Shown here: piece by piece, positions 44,487-49,502 of the stretch
How the letters are laid out: each line of letters begins with the position of its first letter
Numbering within the stretch: position 1 is the stretch's first letter
Assembly (NCBI RefSeq): GCF_017873555.1
Contig: NZ_JAGGKE010000003.1
Location: 62,001-126,000, forward strand
Reading direction: 5' to 3'
Origin: Halorubrum trapanicum
GTDB lineage: Archaea; Halobacteriota; Halobacteria; Halobacteriales; Haloferacaceae
Length of the DNA stretch: 64,000 nt
The notes under the pieces: generated by a model
What the model saw: only the letters and a program-made list of their open reading frames with translations
Database searches by the model: none
Told to the model about the DNA's origin: nothing
Program-made: the position numbers and the translations under genes

Positions 44487-44534
44487 CCCCTGCCTACTTC
44501 GCTCGCCTGACGGTTCGCTTCGTTGAGGCAGGGG
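44487..44534. repeat. Subterminal hairpin at the tnpB end of the IS
   Basis: CCCCTGCCT (44487-44495) pairs perfectly with AGGCAGGGG (44526-44534). The stem overlaps the tnpB stop codon. In this family such a hairpin is the right-end recognition structure, and RNA from this region typically serves as the guide (omega) RNA of TnpB. Confidence 0.85.
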
Positions 44535-45651
44535 CTTCCAAGTCGGCTCGCAAGCGTACCGTTGTAGAGGCTCGGTCAGCACCGCTCGGTTCGAGCACAG
44601 GTTCACAAACTGCGCCGAGACTGGATAGCGGGCACGCGATGTCCTTACCCAGTCCTTTCTTTGCGATGTTCGTCGCACCGTTCTTGTCCGCATTGTCGTC
44701 CAACCCGCACTCATGGCACAGGTGTCGTCCCTGTCCCTTCCGAGTAGTCGTGTCTTGTTCGCCACACCGCCAACACGTTTGACTCGTCATATACTCGTTC
44801 ACGGACTTCACCGCGATACCCGCGAACGTCGCCTTATACCCGATGTAGTTCTTGAGCGTATGGTGTGGCATCGAATGGAGCCGACGATTCATCTCCGCTC
44901 CGAGGTCTTGATTCTGGATTCCTTCGAGGTTCCCGACCACGATGAGCGCGTTGCGCTCTTTAGCTTCCTCCACGATAGCGCGGGAAATCTTGTGGAGGCG
45001 GTCGTTCACTCGGCGATGCTCTTTCGCCCTGACCGACTGGAGCGTGTCGTAGGCTCCCTTCTCTTGTAGACGAGTGCGAAGATTGTGATGGTGACGGCGG
45101 ATACGGCGAATCTCCCGACCGTAGAACTCGGTGTTACGGGAAGGCAACGCCACCGACGTTGCCACCCATCGAATACCGAAATCCACGCCGATAACACCGT
45201 CGTACTCCTCGCTAACTTCCACCTCTTGCCGAACCGTCAGGTGCGCGTAGTAGTCGCCACCCTCTCGAACGATTTTCGAGTCCTTCACGTCGGCCTCGTC
45301 GGGGATCTCATCGTGCGGTTGAATCGGGACGTTCACGCCACCCCAGACCTGTGAGACGGGGAGTTTCAGCCACCAGTCCGTCAGGTCGGTGTCGTGCTGT
45401 TCCACATCCACGCCAACGTCGAACACGTCGTTGCGGATAAACCACGGGTAGTCGTGGTCGTCGCGCAGGTTGTCGGTGTCCACGTAGGCGTCGGCGCATT
45501 GTTTCGTGGCCGAGTAGAGGTCGGCGTCCTCGTCGCCACGAATGTATCGTTGGAACGCTTCGTACTCGTGGTTGATGGCGTCGAGTTTCGACTGCGTAAG
45601 GTCGTCGGTGAGGATTTTCGCCACGACCGTCTTCTCGGCAGTCTGTTTCAT
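44494..45651 (-). CDS. tnpB: TnpB RNA-guided nuclease of IS200/IS605
   Basis: A 385-residue TnpB, ancestor-type of Cas12 nucleases. RuvC catalytic acids lie in GVDFGIRW (Asp), VVGNLEGIQNQ (Glu) and DDNADKNGATNIA (Asp). A zinc ribbon CWRCG...CHECG is between the last two. The N-terminal ~150 residues form the WED/REC-like part (IRGDEDADLYSATKQCADAY). It overlaps tnpA by four bases. It appears full length, so the nuclease may be active, with a guide derived from its own 3' end. Confidence 0.93.
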   Translation of the reverse strand: MKQTAEKTVVAKILTDDLTQSKLDAINHEYEAFQRYIRGDEDADLYSATKQCADAYVDTDNLRDDHDYPWFIRNDVFDVGVDVEQHDTDLTDWWLKLPVSQVWGGVNVPIQPHDEIPDEADVKDSKIVREGGDYYAHLTVRQEVEVSEEYDGVIGVDFGIRWVATSVALPSRNTEFYGREIRRIRRHHHNLRTRLQEKGAYDTLQSVRAKEHRRVNDRLHKISRAIVEEAKERNALIVVGNLEGIQNQDLGAEMNRRLHSMPHHTLKNYIGYKATFAGIAVKSVNEYMTSQTCWRCGEQDTTTRKGQGRHLCHECGLDDNADKNGATNIAKKGLGKDIACPLSSLGAVCEPVLEPSGADRASTTVRLRADLEAPASTKRTVRRAK

Positions 45652-46064
45652 TCGTCGTCACGCTCCCGTTGGGTCTCGACGTATTCTTTCAGTACGTCCA
45701 GCGATACTTGTCCCGTGCTGATGAGGCAGTACGAGTCTGTCCAAAACGAGTCGCCCCACAGTTTGTCCTCGATGTGGTCGGCATATTCGTTGCGGATGCG
45801 TCGAGCAGACGCGCCTTTGAGGACGTTGATGAATTTGGCAAGGTCGGTCGTGGGCGTGGCTTTGAACAGGAGGTGAACGTGGTCGCGGTCGGCTTCGAGG
45901 TTTGTGATTTCGACACCGTAGTTGTCAGCGAACCCACTCACGACCTCGCGGAAGAAATCTCGGAGTTCTTCGTTGAACACCTCGCGTCGGTATTTCACGA
46001 CGAGGACGAGGTGGTAGTGTAGGGAGTATGTCGAGTGCGCTCCCGTATTGAGGTCGTGTTCCAT
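45648..46064 (-). CDS. tnpA: TnpA Y1 transposase of IS200/IS605
   Basis: A 138-residue HUH single-strand transposase. The HUH motif is ADRDHVHLLF, and the catalytic tyrosine lies in the C-terminal helix LKEYVETQRE. The N-terminus STYSLHYHLVLVVKYRREVF is typical. The ATG at 46064 (MEHDLNTGAHSTYSLHYH) is chosen; the longer upstream frame crosses the element's end. The gene looks intact. Confidence 0.93.
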   Translation of the reverse strand: MEHDLNTGAHSTYSLHYHLVLVVKYRREVFNEELRDFFREVVSGFADNYGVEITNLEADRDHVHLLFKATPTTDLAKFINVLKGASARRIRNEYADHIEDKLWGDSFWTDSYCLISTGQVSLDVLKEYVETQRERDDE

Positions 46065-46174
46065 TGGGTTCAATTCTACTATCGGGCTACAGTCATATGA
46101 TTCTTTACTTGGGTTATACGGTTTCTTAGATAGCCTAATTTCGTGTCGGCTGTATCCCCGCCCTACTGCGTCCT

Positions 46175-46221
46175 CAGAACGCGGAGCGTTCTGATGTGCG
46201 AACGAGAGCTTCGCTCTCGTT
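46175..46221. repeat. Pair of perfect hairpins at the tnpA end of the IS
   Basis: CAGAACGC-GGA-GCGTTCTG (46175-46193) and AACGAGAGC-TTC-GCTCTCGTT (46201-46221), with 8- and 9-base stems and 3-base loops. They sit where the left-end recognition hairpin of the element is expected; having two is more than the family minimum. Confidence 0.85.
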
Positions 46222-46316
46222 AACGCTACCCGGTCGCTTGGCTCACTGCGTTGCTCCTTGAAATGAGAACTTAGCCTCGCAAAACTTAAAGGCGCGCCGG
46301 GGATATCCGGTCGTGA

Positions 46317-46389
46317 GGGCGCGTAGCTCAGCGGACAGAGCACTTGGTTCCGGACCAAGATGCCGCGGGTTCAAATCCCGTCGCGCCCG
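46317..46389 (+). tRNA. tRNA-Arg (anticodon CCG)
   Basis: Complete cloverleaf: acceptor GGGCGCG/CGCGCCC, D-stem GCTC/GAGC, anticodon stem CTTGG/CCAAG with loop TTCCGGA (anticodon CCG, reading CGG), T-stem GCGGG/CCCGT with one G-T pair and loop TTCAAAT, discriminator G at 46389. No intron. Its 3' end, from 46377, is duplicated at 49362, so it served as an integration target. Confidence 0.96.
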
Positions 46390-46409
46390 TATCGTTCTAA
46401 TCGCATGAC
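46377..46409. repeat. attL: tRNA 3'-end copy, left boundary of an island
   Basis: A 33-base sequence covering the last 13 bases of the tRNA gene and 20 bases beyond, exactly repeated at 49362-49394. After a short divergent stretch both copies continue with GGGGTAG. Typical attachment site of a tRNA-targeted integrative element. Confidence 0.88.
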
Positions 46410-46873
46410 TCCGGCGGGGTAGACACCGGAATACTCCAAGGCGCGTGCTTTCGTTCGACGAGTGACTGCCCGCGGGTTCAGTGGGATTCACGTACAGCCA
46501 AACTAGACTGGGTAGAGAAAATCAATCGCTGATTGACCTCTCTAAACGGATTTGACTAACGATTACTCAGTACAGTCGGACATGTATTGTAGACCGGCTA
46601 TCCATCGATCAGTGTTGGTTTCTCGCGTTTCTCAGCTGGGACTAGATTAACGCATTTTAGATCTTCACTCTCACAAAGATTGCCGAAAATCAACGTCAGT
46701 CGTAATGGGGTAATCGGCGTCATATGGTCGTATAAGCGCAGCGAGGAACAAACCGCACACGTCGTGGTTTTTTGTACTAGTCTCTGGCGATGGTTGTTTA
46801 AATTCGTTAACCCGCGTGAACACAAACCGAGTTTGATTATCTGGTGTGTCATTAGTTGACGAGAGAACAACCT
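46410..46873. other. AT-rich leader segment of the island, no convincing gene
   Basis: About 460 bases. A 98-codon minus-strand frame exists (46598-46894) but has no family resemblance and overlaps the transposase start. TTTAAATTCG near 46796-46805 may be the promoter of the transposase. The upstream end of the IS66-type element should lie here, but I could not identify terminal inverted repeats by eye. Confidence 0.45.
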
Positions 46874-48286
46874 ATGGCTGACAACAGACAGCAATTTGCT
46901 CTCAGAGAGGATGGCGAAGAAGCCAGTGTTTTCAGAGGAAATACTCCGAGACAGGCGGCATTAAAAGCTGCTCGACGACTTGACCCAGCAAAAACTGAGG
47001 AGGAGGCCATGACAAGTTCGGAGCGAATACGCCTCCGAGAACACGGAACTATCAAGATTCACGTGTATGAGGCGTGGGCCTGGCAGGAGATAACAACTCA
47101 AGATGACCCAGAGTGGCTCGGAGATAGTGTCACAAGAGCTAATGTGGAAAAAGTACGTGTCGAAACCGTCACAAAAGCAGAAGATGAGTTCGAATATAAC
47201 CGTATATCTCCTCTCCTTTCTGACCAGCCAATCAAGATTACACAAGATAAGTGTGATAATTGTGGTAGTTCATTAGAAGGAGGGTTCAAGATAGCTGTCG
47301 GTGTCAGAGATGTACCTGATCCCCCGATTGTTCGACACAGTCGCTACTACTATGAATGTGATAGCTGCGATGAAGAGGTGGTTGCTGAAAAAGAATATCT
47401 CCCTTCGAAGGGCAGATACGGTGCTAATCTCCTTGCCCAAGCTGTTCTCTTCCGGTACGAGTACCGGATTCCGTACCGAAAGGTCTCAAACTTATTTGAA
47501 CAGCTGTACGGCTGTAGCATCAGTGAAGCAGGTGTGCTACAACTCTGTGAACGGATGGCAACTACCGCTCGTTCCGAATATGAGGATATCCAAAAACGGA
47601 TACAGTCTGCTGATGTACTCTTTGCTGATGAAACTCCTCACTTAGTCGATGGGTCAAAAAGTTGGCTGTGGGTATTCACAACCGATAATAGAACCTTTTA
47701 CGCCTTCAGAGATAGTCGTGGGAGCGAAGTTCTGGAAGACGTTCTTGGAGACGCCTTCACTGGTGTGATCGTCTGTGACGGTCATCGCTCATATCCTGCG
47801 TATCACTCGTGGTTACAAAGATGCTGGACTCACCTGCTTCGTGGGACTGATAAACTGTCTGATAATGACACTGAGGCGTGGTCAATCTATAATCGTCTGT
47901 TTGAGATTTTCGAAGGTCTGAAAGCTTTTTTACAGACTGATCCCACACCAGTTCAGCGTCTTGTTGTTCAAAGTAATGCACGTGAAGAACTGAGAAGGTT
48001 GGCGAGGACTGAAGTTCAATCAGAGGACGCTAATGACGTTCTGACGATGCTTGAGAATGGTATCGGACACTGGCTCACGTTCGTCGTTCATCCAGATGTC
48101 GAACCGACGAATAACACGGCTGAGGCTATATTGCGTGAACCAATAGCGATGCGAAGAATAATCCGAACACTCCAAAATCAAAAAGGAATGCGATTGCACG
48201 AGACTTTCCTCTCCCTAATTAAGACTTGGAAACAACAAGGTGCTAATCCCTACACTGAACTCCAACGACTGGCTCGTAATGTATGA
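46874..48286 (+). CDS. MC1 chromosomal-protein domain fused to an IS66-type DDE transposase
   Basis: A 470-residue protein with two parts. Residues ~1-100 match archaeal non-histone chromosomal protein MC1: QFALREDGEEASVFRGNTPR, QAALKAARR, IRLREHGTIKIHVYEAW and DPEWLGD, including the aromatic residues and Arg/Lys face that bend DNA. Residues ~120-470 are an IS66 TnpC-like transposase: zinc knuckles C127/C130 and C162/C165, the HTH-like KVSNLFEQLYGCSISEAGV, and DDE acids Asp252 (FADETPH), Asp302 (VCDGHRSYPAY) and Glu417 (NNTAEAILREP), with RCWTHLLR between. The frame is uninterrupted. No tnpA/tnpB partner, as in ISBst12-type elements. An in-frame start six codons earlier (46856) is possible. 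The MC1 domain presumably supplies end binding or bending. Confidence 0.88.
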   Translation: MADNRQQFALREDGEEASVFRGNTPRQAALKAARRLDPAKTEEEAMTSSERIRLREHGTIKIHVYEAWAWQEITTQDDPEWLGDSVTRANVEKVRVETVTKAEDEFEYNRISPLLSDQPIKITQDKCDNCGSSLEGGFKIAVGVRDVPDPPIVRHSRYYYECDSCDEEVVAEKEYLPSKGRYGANLLAQAVLFRYEYRIPYRKVSNLFEQLYGCSISEAGVLQLCERMATTARSEYEDIQKRIQSADVLFADETPHLVDGSKSWLWVFTTDNRTFYAFRDSRGSEVLEDVLGDAFTGVIVCDGHRSYPAYHSWLQRCWTHLLRGTDKLSDNDTEAWSIYNRLFEIFEGLKAFLQTDPTPVQRLVVQSNAREELRRLARTEVQSEDANDVLTMLENGIGHWLTFVVHPDVEPTNNTAEAILREPIAMRRIIRTLQNQKGMRLHETFLSLIKTWKQQGANPYTELQRLARNV

Positions 48287-48290
48287 GAGT

Positions 48291-48467
48291 TCAGATACTC
48301 AACGGATTCAGTCTTTTTCCTCTGTATTCTGGTTTTGCCTTCTTGAACCCGTCCCGATAGCAGGGCCAACAGAGAAAGCATTCAAAAAGTGAACAGTCGT
48401 AATCAACCGGTTTCAGAGCCGATGTCATCTCGAACTGTCCACAAGCAAGGGCTATTATCTGAGTCAC
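48291..48467 (-). CDS. Possible Cys-rich small protein or gene remnant
   Basis: From a GTG at 48467 the minus strand encodes about 58 residues including ALACGQFEMTSALKPVDYDC and SLFECFLCWPCYRDGFKK, ending NPLSI. The cysteine/aromatic pattern looks protein-like, with possible metal ligands C-x-x-W/C-x-x-C. The frame is open upstream only to a TGA near 48496, without an ATG before FEM. It could be a truncated gene inside the island or chance. It is convergent with the transposase, four bases after its stop. Confidence 0.3.
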   Translation of the reverse strand: MTQIIALACGQFEMTSALKPVDYDCSLFECFLCWPCYRDGFKKAKPEYRGKRLNPLSI

Positions 48468-48565
48468 GGTAATCTCTGAATCCGTCTCCGCGTATCGTCT
48501 GACTCACCGATATGTTCGAGGTGATCTCGTTTTTCGGTCCTGTGACGGGTACGGTACACTTCCGG

Positions 48566-48706
48566 TTATTCGTCTTCGAGAGCGTCGTAGATGTCCCGGT
48601 TCAAATCTCGGTCGTCGGCTGCGACCCGTCGAACCAGTTCCTGGCGGATATCCTCCATCACGTTGTCAAGCGGAGATACTGTTTCCGTCTCTTCCTCGGT
48701 GGCCAT
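48566..48706 (-). CDS. 46-residue partner protein of the Doc-type toxin (candidate antitoxin)
   Basis: Encodes MATEEETETVSPLDNVMEDI followed by RQELVRRVAADDRDLNRDIY and ends DALEDE. A small acidic, helical protein without known domain. It lies 25 bases downstream of doc on the same strand. A second copy of the same pair, with identical spacing, exists at 58462-58712, so the two belong together. Antitoxins more often precede the toxin, so the role is inferred. Confidence 0.6.
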   Translation of the reverse strand: MATEEETETVSPLDNVMEDIRQELVRRVAADDRDLNRDIYDALEDE

Positions 48707-48731
48707 ATCTGAACGGACGCTTCGAAGGCCG

Positions 48732-49220
48732 TTAATCGTTCGGGTCCGATGAATCGCCGGTCAGCCGGTCTAGCCCGTACCGGACGAGTTCGTCTCGCCA
48801 CGCTTCGATCTCACCGGCCAGATCGAGTGCTTCGGTGTGGGATCGGAGATAGTCGGTGGTTTCCTCCTCATCGACGGCCGCTTCGTCGGTGCCGAACGCT
48901 TTCAGTATCGTCCTCACTTCGCTGTCGTACTCGAACCGATACCCGTTGAGGAAGTAGAAGACGACCGTCACGTTGAGTGCAGTTCGTTTGTTCGCATCGA
49001 CGAAGGGGTGGTTAGCGACGAGGAGACGGAGGAGGTGATACGCTTTCTCGTGGATGGTGTTCGGTGTGGAACCGAAACTGCCCTCTTTGATGTAGTTCAA
49101 CGCGAACTCGATGTCACCACGGTTCCGAACACCGGCGGGAGTGTCGGGGTACTCCGCGACGACGTCGTCGTGGATGGTGACGACGTCTTCGACGGACGGG
49201 TACCACAACGAGTCGGCCAT
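48732..49220 (-). CDS. Doc/Fic-type death-on-curing toxin
   Basis: About 162 residues. Fic core HPFVDANKRTALNVTVVFYF matches Hx[FP]x[DE][AG]NKR; in Doc proteins this site phosphorylates EF-Tu-like targets, in Fic it AMPylates. The N-terminal WYPSVEDVVTIHDDVV is Doc-like and supports the ATG at 49220 (MADSLWYPSV). The frame is open further up, through the attR repeat to 49391, which would add 57 residues. It is paired with the 46-residue gene downstream. Confidence 0.88.
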   Translation of the reverse strand: MADSLWYPSVEDVVTIHDDVVAEYPDTPAGVRNRGDIEFALNYIKEGSFGSTPNTIHEKAYHLLRLLVANHPFVDANKRTALNVTVVFYFLNGYRFEYDSEVRTILKAFGTDEAAVDEEETTDYLRSHTEALDLAGEIEAWRDELVRYGLDRLTGDSSDPND

Positions 49221-49361
49221 TTGCTCCAATCTCGATACTACACCAGTGTAGATGTTGCTATGATGAGACGGGAGAGTGATGTCAGAAATCGCTTTTTTCA
49301 GGACGCCGATTTCGACCGTCTCACGCCTGAAAGGTCGATCCGTTCGACAGTCGAACCAGCG

Positions 49362-49394
49362 CCCGTCGCGCCCGTATCGTTCTAATCGCATGAC
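49362..49394. repeat. attR: second copy of the tRNA-Arg 3' end
   Basis: Exact 33-base match to 46377-46409. Only the terminal 13 bases of the tRNA are present, so this copy is not a functional tRNA. It marks the right edge of the island and lies upstream of the SWIM gene. Confidence 0.88.
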
Positions 49395-49502
49395 AGCGAC
49401 GGGGTAGTGACTTCCTTCAGAAAGAGGGCGTTACGATTTGGAACGAAAGCGAAATTCATGTCTCGACTTTTTTTGGACCGCGGCAGAATACTGCTCACAC
49501 CC

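Follow-up and report, generated by a model that had tools for sequence, protein, structure and literature searches.

We found a gene in Halorubrum trapanicum in which a chromosomal-protein MC1 domain is joined to an IS66-type transposase, and sequence comparisons confirm that the two are fused in frame, with the transposase complete, in a single gene. It lies on the forward strand at positions 46874..48286 of the 64,000-nucleotide stretch of DNA analyzed here (the window), starts at an ATG at 46874 (with a possible upstream TTG at 46856), and runs uninterrupted over 470 codons with a GC content of 47%, against 66% for the window. In the reading we prefer, to which we give a probability of about 0.5, the protein is a single-ORF, ISBst12-like IS66-type transposase in which the usual coiled-coil/PHTPPSK/GRKxGH N-terminal region has been replaced by a haloarchaeal MC1 domain. 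A sequence-only reading of the window had first noted the fusion and knew of no described MC1-transposase; none turned up in the papers searched, which is not proof that none has been described.

The MC1 domain spans residues 5-98 (46886..47167, +), with a Pfam match to PF05854 (E 5.5e-32, 110 bits against a cut-off of 23) that covers positions 2-94 of the 96 in the profile, as expected from the earlier claim of a complete domain in the N-terminal ~100 residues. The only PDB relatives detected by sequence are MC1 proteins (1t23, 2khl, and 2nbj; E 4.3e-14 for 1t23). AlphaFold2 models the MC1 part with the published strand-helix order at fair to good confidence, while the mean pLDDT of the whole protein is 60.6 and the transposase half is poorly modeled. 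Foldseek searches with the full and MC1-only models did not retrieve MC1 entries, which counts against our reading, and the identification of the N-terminus as MC1 rests on sequence. The C-terminal part matches the IS66 DDE domain PF03050 over residues 179-440 (47408..48193, +; E 2.1e-37) and the NCBIfam equivalog transpos_IS66 (E 7e-74, 249 bits against a cut-off of 180), and the proposed catalytic residues Asp252, Asp302, and Glu417 are unchanged in all 24 aligned relatives. The ORF, the Pfam and NCBIfam matches, and this alignment show that the sequence-only reading had the coordinates, both domain identities, and the catalytic residues right. It had also described two zinc knuckles between the domains. 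Two CxxC pairs can indeed be read from the sequence (C127/C130 and C165/C168; 47252..47377, +), of which C127, C130, and C165 are invariant in the alignment of the fusion with its relatives, and together they would most simply form one zinc ribbon; such pairs occupy matching positions in ordinary IS66 relatives.

Beyond residue 115, the protein resembles known elements. The ISBst12 group of the IS66 family encodes a single transposase ORF without TnpA or TnpB (PMC12898284), and this group and the ISH10-like elements of haloarchaea share with the fusion the DDE domain, its spacing, the CxxC pairs, and the single ORF, at ~41-46% identity over residues 116-470. No further IS66-type ORF appears beside the fusion in the ORF list for the insert described below. 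The lack of the usual accessory proteins, pointed out in the sequence-only reading, is not special to this gene, since the haloarchaeal IS66 elements we examined are all single-ORF. What differs is the N-terminus, which in ISH10-like transposases consists of the coiled-coil/PHTPPSK/GRKxGH region and in the fusion of MC1. The closest MC1-less genes are two sisters (in genomes G301 and G485) with a transposase part ~69% identical to that of the window fusion; they begin just before the CxxC pairs and have neither MC1 nor a coiled coil. That such close sisters manage without MC1 counts against our reading.

The fused MC1 domain shares its whole extent and most of its DNA-contact residues with Methanosarcina-type MC1 (PF05854), which is a free monomer of ~93-110 amino acids rather than the N-terminal domain of a 470-residue protein. 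The solved structure of Methanosarcina MC1 bound to DNA shows Trp74 intercalated and Pro72 inserted in the minor groove; where the major groove is compressed, Arg25 together with Gln23 and Gln26 neutralizes phosphates, and the backbone is gripped by residues that include Lys54, His56, and Lys86 (PMC6776556); the segment Pro24-Lys30 is completely conserved in the MC1 family (PMC3928310). All three fusions that we found keep P24, R25, Q26, K30, H56, W61, P72, W74, and K86 (MC1 numbering). The helix P24-K30, with its Arg25, reads PRQAALK in the window protein, and the intercalating arm retains Pro72 and Trp74 (P79 and W81 in window numbering), with Met75 replaced by leucine. Elsewhere the fusions carry Thr or Ala for Q23, Asp or Gly for R71, and Glu or Asn for K85; the R71 and K85 changes affect basic contacts and count against our reading, and some of these substitutions are also seen in stand-alone haloarchaeal MC1. 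Since most of the intercalating and kink-stabilizing residues are kept, the domain has likely retained DNA bending. In the host's own stand-alone MC1 (G000 C14:588-896; L044:582-992, -), Pro72 is replaced by Asp and there is an insertion ahead of Trp74, changes in the DNA-intercalating arm that are unusual among haloarchaeal MC1 proteins.

The MC1-IS66 architecture is rare. Our sample comprised 391 genomes of the class plus searches by genus, family, and phylum, together ~830 different archaeal genomes, and the architecture was found in three of them, a count to be read with the fact that families with no match lacked a positive control genome. Up to 4 candidates per genome were scored in the class-wide search and more in the searches with the N-terminal half, so rare fusion copies in IS66-rich genomes may be missed. 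Plasmid and phage collections yielded ordinary IS66 transposases or weak matches as their best matches, with no fusion seen, and nothing was found in the viral contigs searched. The other two copies are in Halorubrum californiense (DSM 19288; G224) and in another genus of the same family (G014). The G014 copy is one ORF over residues 1-250, unbroken across the joint between MC1 and transposase and 52% identical to the window protein, and has a frameshift at about codon 250, adjoining the first catalytic Asp. The H. californiense copy is 82% identical to the window protein in the MC1 part and 90-91% in the transposase part; its joint is intact and in frame, and a 1-nt deletion at codon ~73, within MC1, puts the MC1 part and the remainder in different frames. 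This frame break sits in GAGAAAAAACTC (L032:5300-5330); slippage by -1 on the A6 run there would reunite the two frames, and the gene may thus use a programmed frameshift. Two facts about these copies count against our reading: two of the three carry frameshifts, leaving the window gene as the sole intact one, and the window gene is single-copy in its genome, where its upstream flank likewise has no second copy.

Phylogenies suggest that the fusion is old. In a tree with haloarchaeal MC1 proteins, the three fused MC1 domains group as a single clade (support 100/99) on a long stem, and not with the host's own stand-alone protein, which makes a single ancestral fusion likely. The transposase parts of the fusions fall with the G301 and G485 sisters in one clade (100/100), to which the common coiled-coil ISH10-like transposases of haloarchaea do not belong; within this clade, G014 branches first. 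Together with the MC1 tree, this makes the simplest history a single fusion event, after which the line leading to G301 and G485 lost MC1. The G014 branch is long in the transposase tree, and constraining the fusions to group together there lowers the log-likelihood by 10.8 units (p-AU 0.06), so that on this tree alone two separate gains of MC1 would still be compatible with the data. Both halves of the fusion are under purifying selection: comparing the window with H. californiense gives dN/dS values of 0.22 in MC1 and 0.09 in the DDE domain, and comparing it with G014 gives 0.11 in MC1, with a dN of 0.22 that is below the 0.59 of the adjoining transposase segment. These values argue that MC1 has been kept under selection within the protein for at least much of its history. 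We conclude that the MC1-IS66 fusion is real, rare, and old.

The fusion gene also differs from its relatives in its surroundings. ISH10-like elements have GTAYGTGTTTA ends, which in the ordinary haloarchaeal IS66 elements we examined lie close to the gene, usually have perfect 8-bp target duplications (8/8 bp in five of six control elements), and occur in several copies per genome, whereas the fusion is single-copy with no detectable ends. We searched for ends with ungapped 20-mers, with GTR-anchored 14-mers combined with an 8-bp duplication, and with inverted-repeat scans; the shared end motif of control IS66 elements was recovered in 9/10 cases by one scan and in 6/6 by another. Around the window, H. 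californiense, G014, and G301 genes, the same approach gave only chance-level pairs of terminal inverted repeats. The ISH10-type motif GTAYGTGTTTA was not found near the fusion gene at the position and in the orientation expected of an end, terminal repeats starting with GTA or GTG, as is typical of the ISBst12 group, were not found at the window fusion, and the scan that finds target duplications in the controls found no clean one there. The lack of inverted repeats and of a clean target duplication counts against our reading. We also tried to read element ends from a comparison of G301 with G485, which share a 1248-bp block (94%), and rejected them, because sequence further downstream is also common to both and the block boundaries are therefore uninformative.

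Empty sites offer a different view of the insert. In three genomes (G391, G310, and G226), a tRNA-proximal leader directly abuts an antitoxin-Fic module on the side of its small antitoxin-like gene, and comparison with these sites delimits an approximate insert of ~1980 bp carrying the fusion (46578..48561). Its borders show an imperfect 8-bp repeat plus one extra base: the left copy, AGTACAGT (46569..46576, +), and the right copy, GGTACACT (48553-48560), are identical at 6/8 positions. The empty site and border repeat fit a past insertion, and do not in themselves prove transposition by the fusion protein.

These observations bear on the strongest competing explanation, that of a dying element: the fusion was once mobile, none of the sampled copies retains its ends, which have decayed or disappeared, and the window gene survives in a tRNA-Arg island as an intact but immobile remnant. 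The failure to find ends, the frameshifts in both other copies, the single copy per genome, and an empty site marked just by an imperfect 8-bp repeat all speak for this explanation. Low between-species dN/dS in both domains and an intact window frame with all its catalytic residues are harder to reconcile with it, and we consider this explanation possible but doubtful.

The setting of the gene raises a second competitor. The fusion lies just downstream of a tRNA-Arg(CCG) gene (46317..46389, +), flanked by attachment-like repeats of 46 bp that copy the 3' end of the tRNA (46377..46422 and 49362..49407, both +; 93% identical) and are 2985 bp apart. The same repeats recur across Halorubrum, so the gene occupies a hotspot of integration and may be carried along with islands of this kind. 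In other Halorubrum genomes, the tRNA-Arg(CCG) hotspot contains tandem tRNA 3'-end copies with a conserved leader of ~115 bp (also in L093, L095, L096, L102, and L103), and its units carry integrases, a DNA methylase-like gene, or just an antitoxin-Fic pair of ~1 kb; two units in H. californiense have tyrosine-integrase genes at their ends, next to the repeat. In the window, the insert adjoins a gene for a 46-aa antitoxin-like protein (48566..48706, -), conserved beside Fic in many Halorubrum genomes, which is followed by a Fic/Doc family gene (48732..49391, -; PF02661, E 2.7e-10) whose longest ORF begins within the attachment repeat. This pair (48566-49391, -) forms a small att-flanked module found in more than 10 Halorubrum genomes at this same tRNA. 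Directly upstream of the tRNA-Arg gene is an IS200/IS605-type pair (44494-46358, -) of a Y1 transposase and a TnpB-like protein.

In such a setting, the fusion could instead be a domesticated, non-transposing nuclease or regulator resident in tRNA-Arg islands, with MC1 tethering an IS66-derived enzyme to bent DNA. Purifying selection, the similar tRNA-derived modules occupied by both Halorubrum copies, and element ends that go unrecognized in the whole fusion clade are consistent with this role. We regard it as improbable given the very patchy distribution (3/~830 genomes), the two broken copies, the lack of a conserved partner gene, and a tRNA-derived setting seen for the two Halorubrum copies only and not for G014. 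That a sequencing or assembly error joined two separate genes, a concern raised in the sequence-only reading, has nothing in its favor and can be dismissed, since the homologue from another genus is a single ORF over the joint and the break in H. californiense lies in MC1 and not at the joint.

If the fusion is a transposase with a replaced N-terminus, as we prefer, MC1 is probably its N-terminal DNA-binding module. Many transposases rely on host DNA-bending proteins supplied in trans. We tentatively suggest that this one carries its own chromatin-architecture protein in cis, with MC1 bending the element ends or the target in the transpososome, the role that IHF, HU, and similar host factors play in trans for other transposases. 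MC1 would bind double-stranded DNA largely regardless of its sequence, W81 would intercalate and P79 insert to produce a sharp turn, and this turn would help to fold the ends of the element, the target, or both into the transpososome; alternatively, MC1 may favor DNA that is already bent. Built-in end bending and access to host chromatin, the two functions put forward in the sequence-only reading, remain inferences, as the scan that recovered terminal repeats and target duplications in ordinary haloarchaeal IS66 elements found no such repeats and no clean duplication here. The sister transposases of G301 and G485, which lack MC1, provide a built-in domain-deletion comparison. The roles of MC1 beyond compaction have been described as unknown (PMC6776556). 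A transposase covalently linked to MC1 would offer a handle on these roles, and would let one ask in a natural system whether a DNA-bending protein exerts its effect at the ends of an element or in the selection of its target.
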